From the NCBI GenBank assembly GCA_030159075.1, contig BROG01000629.1, positions 206,501 through 270,500 of the forward strand: DNA of 64,000 bases, read 5' to 3'. Below the pieces are notes generated by a model. The model worked only from the letters and a program-made list of their open reading frames with translations. It was not told where the DNA came from and did not search any database. Position 1 is the first letter of the stretch. Each line of letters starts with the position of its first letter. Shown one piece after another: positions 60,401 through 62,137 of the stretch. A program made the translations under genes and the position numbers. This DNA comes from Atrina japonica. Taxonomy: Eukaryota; Mollusca; Bivalvia; Pterioida; Pinnidae.

Positions 60401-62137
60401 TTAAACAACAATAAACAAACAATTATAAACACAAATTTGTTTAAAAAGTACAATGTATACATGCATCTTACATTTTGACTACTCACATGTACGTTTATGT
60501 AAATGAATCAGTTCACAGGTGTTCAAAGAAACAAGATGACCCTGCCCCCCTCTCTATCATTTAGTGCACAAGTTTACTAACTGTGAAGTTAATGGCCCAT
60601 TATTTTTTTAGTCAATTATTACACATTTGAAAAAAACTTCAGAAATATTTAAAAAAATGTTAGAGTAACATACTCAACATATTTATTCATTTTTTACAGG
60701 AAAATCATAAGTGTGATACAAAAATTTATATGTGAATCATGTAAAAGAATATTTGTCCTATTCACTTAAATTTGAAAGTTTTACATACAACAGACGAAAT
60801 AAAGAAATAAAATTGAGCTTGAGACTTACTGAGTAAATTTAGTGACTACAGTCCTACATGTACGGTAGGTTTAACCCCACAACCAGAATTTTGGGACCTT
60901 TCGCCTACAAGTGAAGCTACATGTAAAACCACAAATTTTTATCTCTTCAATGGACTGATGCCAGTACAGTCTACAATGTAGGTACTTAGATGTTCCATGC
61001 CAACTGTGACACTCTGGTCCTCGATTTGAAGTCTCCACCAAAACATGCAAAAGACCTGTGACTTCATTTCTTGTGCTGAGCACTTGTGAAAGAAACAGTT
61101 TGTAGGTATTTTTTCAAAGCCTTATATTTAGGTATGACATGATACCAAGAACTGAAATGTGACCTTCTGTATATGAATCAAATGCTCTGTATACATGGAA
61201 ATTTTCACTCATAATTATTTTCAACCTCTTGAATGGCGATTCACCCCATCTTAAATTTGCAGAAATCACCAAACTCTCTCATGGATGGATATTTTGTGCT
61301 TCAAATATTTAGCATACAAATATCACTTTGGATTGAAATTCACCCTCTCATATAAAGATGAAAATGGCAAATATTATAAGGGAGTGTAAATTGGCATGTA
61401 CAGGTACAATGTAATACATGTAACTGACAACTGTGTACAATAGCTTTACACCTGTCTGACGATACATAAAGTTTACATGTATAGCTTACCCTTCCTTTGG
61501 GTAGATCTGTTTAATACATGTAACTGACAACTGTGTTCAATAGCTTAACACCTGACAATACATACAGTTTACATGTATAGCTTACCCTTCCTTTGGATAG
61601 ATCTGCTTAATACATGTAACTGACAATTGTGTACAATAGCTTTACACCTGTCTGACAATACATAAAGTTTACATGTATAGCTTACCCTTCCTTTGGATAG
61701 ATCTGCTGAATACATGTAACTGACAACTGTGTACAATAGCTTTACACCTGTCTGAAGATACATAAAGTTTACATGTATAGCTTACCCTTCCTTTGGGTAG
61801 ATCTGTTTAATACATGTAACTGACAACTGTGTACAATAGCTTTACACCTGACAATACATAAAGTTTACATGTATAGCTTACCCTTCCTTTGGATAGATCT
61901 GTTTAATACATGTAACTGACAACTGTGTACAATAGCTTTACACCTTACAATACATAAAGTTTACATGTATGGCTTACCCTTCCTTTGGATCATGTAACTG
62001 ACAACTGTGTACAATAGCTTTACACCTGTCTGACGATACATAAAGTTTACATGTATGGCTTACCCTTCCTTTGGATAGATCTGTTTAATCTCTGTCTGGT
62101 GATAGGTCACTAATTCCCCTGTTTTACTTGAAAATAT
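36321..62137 (-). CDS. GK: Glycerol kinase (16 of about 17 coding exons; N-terminal exon outside window)
   Basis: Phosphorylates glycerol with ATP to sn-glycerol 3-phosphate (FGGY carbohydrate kinase family). Exons, in transcription order: 62064-62137, 58833-58939, 55638-55715, 53216-53295, 51621-51758, 50889-50998, 50037-50139, 49201-49268, 48406-48448, 46363-46522, 44117-44213, 43093-43177, 41466-41586, 38973-39116, 37671-37748, 36321-36418. All have GT-AG borders, and the phases join without a break into 1584 nt (527 residues plus TAA). Catalytic features are intact: NQRET (glycerol-binding Arg-Glu), WLDMRT (Trp), ITTYFSAVK (Tyr), GDQQAALVG (catalytic Asp) and the YGTGCFLL nucleotide region. 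FGGY signature 1 ([13 protein letters not shown]) and signature 2 (GIICGLTQF...ALEA) are also present. The C-terminal about 20 residues are hydrophobic, as in the mitochondrial-membrane-anchored animal enzyme. With about 25-30 missing N-terminal residues the length matches the usual 550-560. Confidence 0.97.
37062..37170. repeat. Short tandem repeat in the last GK intron
   Basis: About four degenerate units of 'cctggatagcttggtgtatttta'. Confidence 0.7.
37349..37486. mobile_element. Tc1/mariner-type MITE, copy 1
   Basis: CAGTGAAACCTGT at the left and its inverse ACtGGTTTCACTG at the right, each bordered by TA. 138 bp, non-coding. It sits in the GK intron between the last two exons. Confidence 0.8.
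37671..37748 (-). CDS. GK: GK exon: C-terminal kinase segment
   Basis: Encodes [12 protein letters not shown], corresponding to the conserved W-K-x-A-V-x-x-S-M-x-W near the end of the catalytic domain. Acceptor ATTTACAG, donor CCAG|GTAAGT. Confidence 0.95.
37961..38000. repeat. Poly-T/poly-G tract
   Basis: About 26 T followed by 13 G. Confidence 0.9.
38344..38910 (-). repeat. 27-bp minisatellite with hairpin units (array E)
   Basis: About 21 copies of 'ctacacctgcattgtgtagg' + 'tcatttta'. Each unit contains the self-complementary CTACAC...GTGTAG (6-bp stem, 7-nt loop). On the transcribed strand each also reads TGCAG|GTGTAG, a weak 5' splice-site match. The array begins 62 bp downstream of the GK exon donor at 38973. 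Confidence 0.95.
38973..39116 (-). CDS. GK: GK exon with [14 protein letters not shown] motif
   Basis: Encodes [20 protein letters not shown], then [12 protein letters not shown], the C-terminal nucleotide-domain signature of glycerol kinase. The junction codon G|TG restores N-V-V-K-P with the previous exon. Confidence 0.97.
39772..41450 (-). repeat. Minisatellite of about 30 bp, over 50 copies (array D)
   Basis: Units of 'cacaatcacctgtattacat' + 'agaggacact', with a 40-45 bp variant block at 41000-41220 and phase shifts. On the transcribed strand each unit carries GATT|GTGAGT and ACAG|GTGATT. The array stops about 15 bp from the true GK donor GTTG|GTGAGT (41466/41465). Frames across it on both strands are artefacts. 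Confidence 0.95.
41466..41586 (-). CDS. GK: GK exon with VDGGMTNN motif
   Basis: Encodes [20 protein letters not shown], a conserved ATP-binding-domain block of FGGY kinases. Confidence 0.97.
42430..42690 (-). repeat. Tandem repeat of about 68 bp, 3.7 copies
   Basis: Units contain 'ctcaccatggctatggatcg' and 'aactggtatgttactggtat'. On the transcribed strand each reads CATG|GTGAGA. Confidence 0.9.
43093..43177 (-). CDS. GK: GK exon with FGGY signature 2
   Basis: Encodes [20 protein letters not shown], then EAVCFQTKE. Acceptor TTTCAAG, donor GAG|GTAGGG. Confidence 0.97.
43727..43783. promoter_or_regulatory. Paired CRE sites around an inverted repeat
   Basis: TGACGTCA at 43741-43748 and 43776-43783, the full CREB/ATF palindrome. 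The first lies between inverted copies of ATGAATGAAGTTAC. A related sequence near 15855-15895 suggests a dispersed element carrying the sites. Confidence 0.4.
44117..44213 (-). CDS. GK: GK exon with FVPAFSGL motif
   Basis: Encodes [16 protein letters not shown], then QMDARG, a highly conserved GK segment. Donor AGAGG|GTAAGT. Confidence 0.97.
44968..45139. mobile_element. Tc1/mariner-type MITE, copy 2
   Basis: TA-CAGTGGAACCT at the left and AGGTTCCACTG-TA at the right. Its right end is the first unit boundary of the adjoining 67-bp array. Confidence 0.75.
45130..46005. repeat. Minisatellite of about 67 bp derived from a MITE end (array F)
   Basis: About 13 copies of 'ggttccactgtaacacctca' + 'ctattcaaaccactttaagt' + 'cagtcagtgaggtgctatta'. 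Each unit begins with the terminal inverted repeat of the preceding MITE. Confidence 0.9.
46109..46283. mobile_element. Tc1/mariner-type MITE, copy 3
   Basis: Left TA-CAGGGGAATCT (diverged), right ACAGGTTTCACTG-TA. The interior resembles the 37.3-kb copy ('acctgtcttgag', 'gtggtctc'). Confidence 0.65.
46363..46522 (-). CDS. GK: GK exon with [17 protein letters not shown] motif
   Basis: Encodes [10 protein letters not shown], then [20 protein letters not shown]. This is the largest visible GK exon (160 nt). Confidence 0.97.
46813..46881. mobile_element. TTAA-type MITE, right-end fragment
   Basis: 'gtagaaaaaatcgaaataat', then 'acacagataatgtccctt': right terminal part only. Confidence 0.5.
47590..48005. 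repeat. Dispersed repeat of about 400 bp, copy 2
   Basis: Partner of 18775-19170, inside a GK intron. Same orientation, roughly 80-85 percent identical by eye. Confidence 0.8.
48082..48188. repeat. Tandem duplication of about 52 bp
   Basis: Two copies of 'gatgtatgcatacattcaaa' + 'agaaaattttatat', differing by one or two bases. Confidence 0.9.
48406..48448 (-). CDS. GK: GK 43-nt exon with YGTGCFLL motif
   Basis: Encodes [14 protein letters not shown], the phosphate-binding loop region. Very short exon with a weak donor (GAG|GTAGTG). The split T codon (AC|G) and phase 0 exit fit both neighbours. Confidence 0.95.
49201..49268 (-). CDS. GK: GK exon with catalytic Asp (GDQQAALVG)
   Basis: Encodes [20 protein letters not shown]. 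The Asp of GDQ is the catalytic base in the family. Donor AC|GTTAGT. Confidence 0.97.
49791..49962. mobile_element. MITE with ATACCTGGAAATTTTCGC ends, copy 2
   Basis: Left 'tacctggaaattttcgct'; right 'caaattccaggtatacag'. Partner of 29491-29712. Confidence 0.6.
50037..50139 (-). CDS. GK: GK exon with [12 protein letters not shown] motif
   Basis: Encodes [20 protein letters not shown], then LKGVPISG. The optional segment found in some vertebrate isoforms after E-I-Y-G is absent here. Confidence 0.97.
50889..50998 (-). CDS. GK: GK exon with [10 protein letters not shown] motif
   Basis: Encodes [20 protein letters not shown], then WDKTLC. Acceptor CTACTTCAG, donor TGCAA|GTAAGA. Confidence 0.97.
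51090..51620 (-). repeat. Minisatellite of about 49 bp containing copies of the exon end and donor (array C)
   Basis: Units join a piece of the adjoining exon's last about 22 nt (plus-strand 'cacaatagccagctatcaat', in variants such as 'cacaataatcagatatcatt') to 'agaggggtggatc' and 'atgtcacttac'. Donor text 'acttacc' recurs at about 51413, 51461, 51510 and 51559, with 'acatacc' variants further left. The genuine donor is at 51621/51620. Confidence 0.9.
51621..51758 (-). CDS. GK: GK exon with FGGY signature 1
   Basis: Encodes [19 protein letters not shown], then GTIDSWLLW. The Tyr of ITTY is a glycerol-contact residue. Starts in phase 0 after acceptor TTTGATAG. Confidence 0.97.
53216..53295 (-). 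CDS. GK: GK exon with WLDMRT motif
   Basis: Encodes [20 protein letters not shown], then DKDYLR. The Trp is the glycerol-pocket residue. Confidence 0.96.
53405..54605. repeat. Minisatellite of about 21 bp with higher-order repeat (array G)
   Basis: About 55 degenerate units of 'gagagctaagtcatacactt' + 'cct'. A block of about 240 bp (from about 53760) recurs from about 54010 with the same idiosyncratic variants ('gaaagttatgtcaaacaacc'), so a multi-unit block was duplicated. Confidence 0.9.
54940..55025 (-). mobile_element. Possible tRNA-derived SINE head fragment
   Basis: On the minus strand 'ggccaagtagttagagcatt' resembles an A box and 'ttgttactgggttct' a degenerate B-box region. Short and diverged. 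Confidence 0.35.
55638..55715 (-). CDS. GK: GK exon with [11 protein letters not shown] motif
   Basis: Encodes [20 protein letters not shown]. Arg and Glu of NQRET bind glycerol. Donor ATTG|GTACTA is non-consensus at +4/+5. Confidence 0.97.
56057..56170. repeat. (TG)n microsatellite
   Basis: TG repeats with GCATGCATG interruptions. Cys-Val and His-Thr frames over it are artefacts. Confidence 0.95.
56573..56703. repeat. Foldback inverted repeat of about 130 bp
   Basis: 'ggccctcagtgg' ... 'tccctgggaagggttatttt' mirrors 'aaataacccttcccaggga' ... 'acacagagggcc'. MITE-like, within a GK intron. Confidence 0.85.
57340..57815. repeat. GTAC-rich tandem repeat, about 30-45 bp units (array H)
   Basis: Units of 'tacatgtacataaagtacat' + 'ataaagtacttata' in variable order. 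Confidence 0.9.
57960..58505. repeat. 25-bp minisatellite, about 22 copies (array I)
   Basis: Units of 'gtgtgataaccataagaatc' + 'taact'. Lies 330-870 bp downstream of the GK exon at 58833. Confidence 0.95.
58833..58939 (-). CDS. GK: GK exon with GWVEEDP motif
   Basis: Encodes [20 protein letters not shown], then [10 protein letters not shown]. The split Gly codon GG|A matches the exon upstream. Confidence 0.97.
58988..59160. repeat. (TA)n microsatellite
   Basis: Interrupted TA repeats directly upstream of the GK exon at 58939 in the transcribed direction. Tyr-Ile frames are artefacts. Confidence 0.95.
59283..59755. repeat. 69-bp minisatellite, about 7 copies (array J)
   Basis: Units contain 'acgttataacaaaactttat', 'acagtatcatgctcaacaac' and 'aggtaaagaagactgata'. 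Because 69 is a multiple of 3, a 160-codon plus-strand frame stays open; I do not treat it as a gene. Confidence 0.95.
60155..60422 (+). mobile_element. tRNA-derived SINE, copy 3
   Basis: 'ctggcctggctcagtcagta' and 'gaggtcatgagttcaagtc' (A/B-box head), 'ggcacgttaaagaaccctca' body, 'ttaaacaacaataaacaaac' tail. Inserted in a GK intron, antisense to the gene. Confidence 0.85.
61400..62060 (-). repeat. Minisatellite of 96-100 bp containing copies of the GK exon end and donor (array B)
   Basis: Six full units plus a partial one. Each repeats 'cttacccttcctttgg' followed by 'atagatctgtttaat'. That is the reverse complement of the last about 29 coding nt of the GK exon at 62064 plus its GTAAG donor. 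Repeated donors lie at about 61485, 61581, 61681, 61781, 61877 and 61973; the genuine one is at 62063. The rest of the unit ('acatgtaactgacaactgtg') is intron. Confidence 0.95.
62064..62137 (-). CDS. GK: First visible GK exon
   Basis: Encodes [20 protein letters not shown], then YPKEG, which follows the N-terminal D-Q-G-T-S-S-T-R segment of other GKs. That segment is not in the window. Acceptor TTCTCCACAG; donor AAGG|GTAAGC. Confidence 0.97.

Follow-up and report, generated by a model that had tools for sequence, protein, structure and literature searches.

How does the end of a coding exon, together with its splice donor, come to be repeated in the intron that follows it, and do the extra donors matter? 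A glycerol kinase (GK) gene of the bivalve Atrina japonica raises this question. The gene lies on the minus strand of a 64,000-nucleotide stretch (the window) that comprises positions 206501-270500 of contig BROG01000629.1 (C629), in an assembly of 832 Mb and 2347 contigs; the arrays described here are known from this one assembly. Behind one of its exons, exon A, a minisatellite (array A) presents the real donor followed by six copies of it. We consider it likely that array A is an exon-edge minisatellite whose copies are silent, a mutational by-product that is tolerated since the first donor is the one that splicing is predicted to use. This kind of repeat is already known from two human genes, F7 and IFI6. 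New here is its repeated occurrence in one gene, together with a pair of paralogues of which one carries an array and the other does not.

The part of the gene traced within the window (exon 1 lies beyond it) consists of fifteen exons between 62137 and 37671, which have matching phases and give a single open frame of 495 amino acids once spliced. The full GlpK profile TIGR01311 matches across this frame with 712 bits (cut-off 590), which identifies the product as a glycerol kinase, and the Pfam domains FGGY_N and FGGY_C are both present. Of 7997 homologues scored, 120 were listed, and the best scores among them belong to mollusc kinases, headed by that of the oyster Magallana gigas with 81% identity. 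A search of the genome with the GK protein listed one close locus, the remainder being diverged paralogues. Exon A ends in codon phase 2 (GG), and the phases fit exon B. The junction of the two exons shows a net gap in 0 of the 120 listed homologues, one of which (P0020) has a different N-terminus and so provides only a partial test of this junction. At the junction of exons E and F a single homologue of the 120 (P0049, herring) has 59 additional residues.

The sequence-only reading had described a minisatellite that carries the GK exon end with its donor, with six extra copies 86-100 bp apart following the real donor in sense orientation. Both statements are borne out by the spliced gene and by the alignment of the units. 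Tandem Repeats Finder (TRF) reports about seven units of 100 bp with 88% matches. The first unit, u0, includes the true end of the exon with its donor, and the later units retain the donor consensus in sense orientation. A 14-nt site, AAGGAAGG/GTAAGC (positions -8 to +6, the slash marking the boundary), is identical at all seven donors, whose motif is GGAAGG/GTAAGC and whose spacings are 86, 96, 96, 100, 100 and 96. The copied coding part, given before as about 29 nt, is indeed the exon end; of the six extra copies, five hold 26 nt of it (ATTAAACAG...GGAAGG, with at most two substitutions), and the nearest, u1, holds just 13 nt. The array ends near 61412 and not at 61400, as had been stated.

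When the last 30 nt of exon A and 20 nt of intron were aligned locally with the intron, the score was 87, which none of 5000 query shuffles reached (null maximum 30). Aligning the units with the exon, a check proposed along with the original description, reveals 1-7 substitutions per pair of units over 95-100 columns (82-83 where u1 is one of the pair); the units are thus true diverged copies. Exon-derived and intron-derived columns vary at similar rates (3/26 and 8/78). None of the nine donor columns varies, an outcome with a chance of roughly one in three when 11 of 104 columns vary overall. Each of the seven donors fits 7 of 9 consensus bases and pairs with U1 at -8.9 kcal/mol. An artefact of assembly, to which tandem arrays are prone, would have to account for distinct substitutions and indels in each unit, for a position inside a 439-kb contig and for a second, independent array of this type at exon E, and we rate it as very improbable.

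Table 1. Positions of the exons, arrays, units and donors discussed. Positions refer to the window unless a contig is given; a slash marks a splice boundary or junction.
Feature	Position	Strand	Description	Basis
GK exon 1	C629:280099-280034	(-)	outside the window	
30-bp array in the intron before exon A	62472-63992, on to C629:270992 (window-equivalent ~64492)		~67 units	
Exon A	62064..62137	(-)	74 nt, 25 residues	acceptor CCACAG/, donor /GTAAGC, FGGY/GlpK families
Array A	61412..62089	(-)	seven units of 83-104 bp: exon A end, donor and ~70 bp of intron	TRF, unit alignment
Start of unit u0	62089	(-)	26 nt ahead of the exon A end	unit alignment
Real donor of exon A	62058..62063	(-)	GTAAGC, GT at 62063	donor search, spliced frame
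Donor copy 1	61972..61977	(-)	unit u1, 13 exon nt retained, GT at 61977	unit alignment
Donor copy 2	61876..61881	(-)	unit u2, its 26 exon-derived nt identical to the exon, GT at 61881	unit alignment
Donor copy 3	61780..61785	(-)	GT at 61785	unit alignment
Donor copy 4	61680..61685	(-)	GT at 61685	unit alignment
Donor copy 5	61580..61585	(-)	GT at 61585	unit alignment
Donor copy 6	61484..61489	(-)	outermost, GT at 61489	unit alignment
Outer breakpoint of array A	61412..61415	(-)	...ATGT/ATTA/CATTG	read from sequence
Exon B	58833..58939	(-)	next after exon A, in-frame join EG/WVEEDP	spliced frame
Exon E	51621..51758	(-)	138 nt, ends TTGTGG/GTAAGT	spliced frame
Array E	51062..51643	(-)	units of 48-83 bp (~49 bp), limits set by hand	alignment, donor search
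Acceptor-edge array in a GK paralogue (L034)	C1135:73745-74122		13 units of 29 bp, exon at ~C1135:74121	

The coding consequences of the extra donors can be read directly. Since the phase-2 GG of exon A and the intron behind it give GGG TAA (GG/G TAA), a stop is the first codon beyond the exon end, and extension to any of the six copied donors cuts the spliced frame off at residue 26. The full-length frame of 495 amino acids depends on donor 62063. An extension of the exon in steps, one of the roles proposed from the sequence alone, is thereby rejected as a source of protein diversity. The same result (6/6 extensions) holds for extra proteins of the kind that IFI6 might suggest. A second proposal was that the spare donors, identical and at hand, buffer the gene and rescue it upon mutation of the real donor. 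We combined every single-base change at positions +1 to +6, the scope of this test, leaving deletions and exon-side changes aside, with every backup donor. A full-length open frame resulted in 0 of 108 combinations for array A and in 0 of 126 for array E. Donor buffering via single-base changes is thus rejected and, being contradicted at the coding level for these six donor positions, buffering has next to no chance of being the role of the array. These tests speak against coding roles and not against regulatory use.

The array could also act as a source of cassettes, with single units included as micro-exons of 54 nt, each contributing 18 residues with I(K/Q)QIYPKEG at their end. When each AG of the array was combined with each later donor copy, 7 of 144 combinations kept the full frame, four of them being 54-nt segments of different units. 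The AG that they require ends GGTGTAAAG, with no pyrimidine tract ahead of it as far as can be read, and no net gap at the A/B junction occurs in the 120 listed homologues; we hold such cassettes to be highly improbable. Recursive splicing through a zero-length exon finds no support at the donors either, where A(T/C)CCAAAGGAAGG precedes the GT and, by reading, neither a pyrimidine tract nor an AG at the junction is present.

How the array began is indicated by its outer end. The outermost unit ends ...TTACATGT ATTA CATTG, and exon A reads CAGAG ATTA AACAG, with ATTA at 62089-62086. Of the six internal junctions, five are complete, with ATGT ATTA leading into exon sequence (ATTC instead of ATTA in u4); the sixth, at u1, has lost this stretch. 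It is thus probable that array A arose through a microhomology-mediated tandem duplication with ATTA at both of its sites, because a single event of this type yields just such a pattern of junctions. Units u3 and u6 are identical at all but 1 of 100 positions, and the pattern of the 4-bp indel and of shared substitutions suggests that later growth proceeded in blocks. The exon's own unit, u0, differs from the others by 2-6 substitutions and shares a C at intron position +7 with u1 alone, so the exon copy may itself have taken part in a recent exchange.

A second donor-edge array is found in the same gene. The intron behind exon E starts GTAAGTAATATAAAATC..., after which the exon end and its donor recur in sense orientation; this array E occupies 559 of the 622 intron bases (~90%). 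The exon E end and intron start score 36 against their intron; 0 of 5000 shuffles exceed 30, and in a repeat of the test the score lies above all of 500 shuffles. Among 26-mers sampled along exon E, those at the 3' end alone stand out. The real donor at 51620 is followed by donors or donor-like sites at 51564, 51515, 51466, 51417 (GTAAGT), 51368, 51285 (GTATGT) and 51202 (GTATTT). All seven extra donors lead to stops. Array E resembles array A in that an exon end with its donor is repeated in sense within the next intron; it differs in its shorter unit of ~49 bp, in its greater divergence, in the decay of its outer donors and in filling about nine tenths of its intron. U1 pairing falls from -11.9 kcal/mol at the real donor to -11.4 to -11.8 at the next four and then to -7.3, -7.3 and -6.7 kcal/mol, an outward weakening that fits copies without selection.

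Both human precedents bear on what the copies of array A might do. For intron 7 of human F7, which carries 37-bp repeats in variable number, a review states that the most upstream 5' splice site alone is used in the normal condition, a choice that it terms oriented scanning, citing Borensztajn 2006 (PMC6627357). Array A and F7 intron 7, as described there, have donor-bearing tandem repeats in common. They differ in unit length (~100 bp in array A) and in that variable repeat number and splicing are reported for F7, whereas array A is known from the sequence of one assembly. In human IFI6, two downstream units serve as donors, which gives three mRNA species (PMC4526556). IFI6 and array A are alike in that a minisatellite provides a row of splice donors; downstream donors are used in IFI6, whereas extension into array A would give an immediate stop. 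According to its title, a study by Turri (1995) reportedly concerns multiple splice donor sites in the minisatellite of IFI6 (6-16, G1P3). A limited literature search for donor-edge minisatellites in molluscs found no title.

The following course of events would account for array A. A tandem duplication between the two ATTA sites would have started it, and unequal exchange of units would have made it grow. A 5'-to-3' preference, as reported for F7 intron 7, would lead to the use of donor 62063 and leave the six copies ignored, and the array could persist as a by-product since every copy is downstream of the real exon. This account is supported by the 495-residue frame that requires 62063 together with the gap-free A/B junction in the listed homologues, by the stops behind all six extra donors of array A and all seven of array E, by the outward weakening of the E donors, by the F7 precedent and by a pair of paralogues, described below, with a single edge in one and 13 units in the other. 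Several observations weigh against it. A shared 4-base ATTA could arise by chance in AT-rich DNA, seven cassette combinations leave the frame open, equal U1 pairing across the seven A donors means that strength alone gives no preference for the first, and the downstream repeat donors of IFI6 are used (PMC4526556).

These last two observations also favour a regulatory alternative, which we regard as unlikely. Some transcripts would use a downstream donor, gain an immediate stop and be degraded, so that the length of the array would set the amount of GK. Seven donors pair equally with U1, each extra one leads to the same stop, and IFI6 uses two such downstream donors. Against this stand the F7 repeats, of which the first donor alone is used in the normal condition, and the unit alignment, which gives no indication that the copies are constrained. 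It is rather more doubtful that the array would work as a dial, each added unit diverting more GK pre-mRNA to stop-containing transcripts, with a length that sets the enzyme dose and varies between animals. Seven equal donors in near-identical surroundings do provide a natural test of splice-site choice by position alone.

To see how general such arrays are within the gene, all 16 donors and 15 acceptors, exon 1 included, were compared with 500 shuffles each. Two donors beat every shuffle (A with 87, E with 36) and none of the 15 acceptors did. The next best edges, the acceptor of exon C (reached by 4/500 shuffles) and the donor of exon O (17/500), are unremarkable among 31 tests. When the 12 listed arrays of the gene were placed at random in 2000 trials, a procedure that ignores selection on exons, a mean of 4.54 touched a donor (at least two in 99.3% of trials) and a mean of 4.60 an acceptor, against two and none observed. 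With two observed where 4.54 are expected, this test of 12 GK arrays gives no evidence that donors are a preferred birthplace of arrays. GK is a minisatellite-rich gene in which two arrays were caught at donors, and arrays reaching deeper into exons were presumably removed by selection.

Capture of U1 by decoys was the third role proposed from the sequence alone. Other arrays in the GK introns lend themselves to a reading of this sort, in which the copies are decoys that would bind U1 and alter splicing or shield the long intron from premature polyadenylation. The seven A donors do pair with U1, and sites with at least 8 of 9 consensus bases, here called donor-like, occur in sense orientation in three other arrays: 34 in 62472-63992, where none is antisense within the window, 29 in 39794-41447 and 3 in 51084-51571. 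The A donors themselves, with 7 of 9 bases, fall outside this count, the array at 53403-54604 has 3 antisense sites, and such sites are confined to a few arrays, which makes for a weak asymmetry; we think it very unlikely that the copies would serve as decoys. An origin of the array at 62472-63992 from the donor of exon 1 is unsupported (score 23 against intron 1, reached by 88/500 shuffles). The array at 39794-41447 starts 19 nt past the end of exon M, and many of its units read TACAG/GTGATTGTGAGTGT, with acceptor-like and donor-like motifs adjoining. Its derivation from the exon M donor is likewise unsupported (score 18, reached by 371/500 shuffles).

Outside the gene, 34 donors and 34 acceptors of GK paralogues, arranged in tandem on contig C1135 with one further paralogue on C67, were tested with 200 shuffles; these exon edges were taken from tblastn matches and are therefore approximate. 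Three edges scored above all 200 shuffles. Two of these are microsatellites, one of TA at a donor and one of TTA at an acceptor, and the third is a minisatellite at an acceptor edge. A further edge, the acceptor of the C67 exon at 1233928, was reached by 3/200 shuffles. The unit of the acceptor-edge array straddles the inferred acceptor, with 23 nt upstream of it and 6 nt downstream, and the real edge is the last of the 13 units. The likeness to array A lies in a tandem unit that straddles an exon edge; the differences are that this array grows upstream of an acceptor and that 10 of its 13 units, reading TATAACC, are without AG, the other three keeping TAG. Loss of AG in ten units would fit the removal of acceptors upstream of the real one and may equally be a single mutation spread through growth of the array. 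A sister copy, near C1135:47033, holds this edge, ATTGTTTGGATGTTGTATATTTTAG/AACCATCG, as a single unit (at about C1135:47010) with no array. It is thus probable that the array grew in one of the two copies out of a single-copy edge, the state seen in the sister; loss of an array from the sister is possible and less simple. A paralogue with an array beside a sister without one makes a pair for studying the birth of such arrays. Together, the two GK arrays and this acceptor array suggest that the growth of minisatellites in this genome has taken in exon edges on more than one occasion. The sequence-only reading had called the start of an array at a coding exon boundary unusual, which holds less than stated in view of array E, the paralogue array and the precedents in F7 and IFI6.

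Kinase exons elsewhere in the genome were sampled as 12 of 139 matches, hand-picked for short open frames, with 24 edges and about 1 kb of flank each. No clear case of an array at a coding end was seen among these 12 exons. In one of them (L048, ~1187-1352, reverse complement) a kinase exon end with a likely GTGAGT donor has a single diverged copy ~100 nt downstream, whose score of 35 is borderline beside a null maximum of 31 in 100 shuffles. Another (L042) has a two-copy 31-bp array that runs from the likely donor onward without a copy of the exon. Arrays with a period of at least 15 cover 628 of 26,886 bases in this sample, and the arrays listed by hand in the GK introns cover 7373 of 22,981 (32%); GK introns look array-rich by comparison, the two figures being measured differently.

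Other elements of the window include a tRNA-derived-looking short interspersed element (SINE) at 60165-60420 (CTCAGTCAGTAGCGGGCTCAA ... GTTAAACAACAATAAACAAACAA), which we take to be of a type found in bivalves. Three open frames, at 1378-2097 (-), 13394-14152 (-) and 24450-25115 (+), have a hydrophobic start like that of a signal peptide and a repetitive, arginine-rich body, thus looking like putative secreted repeat proteins; the first two are alike by eye.

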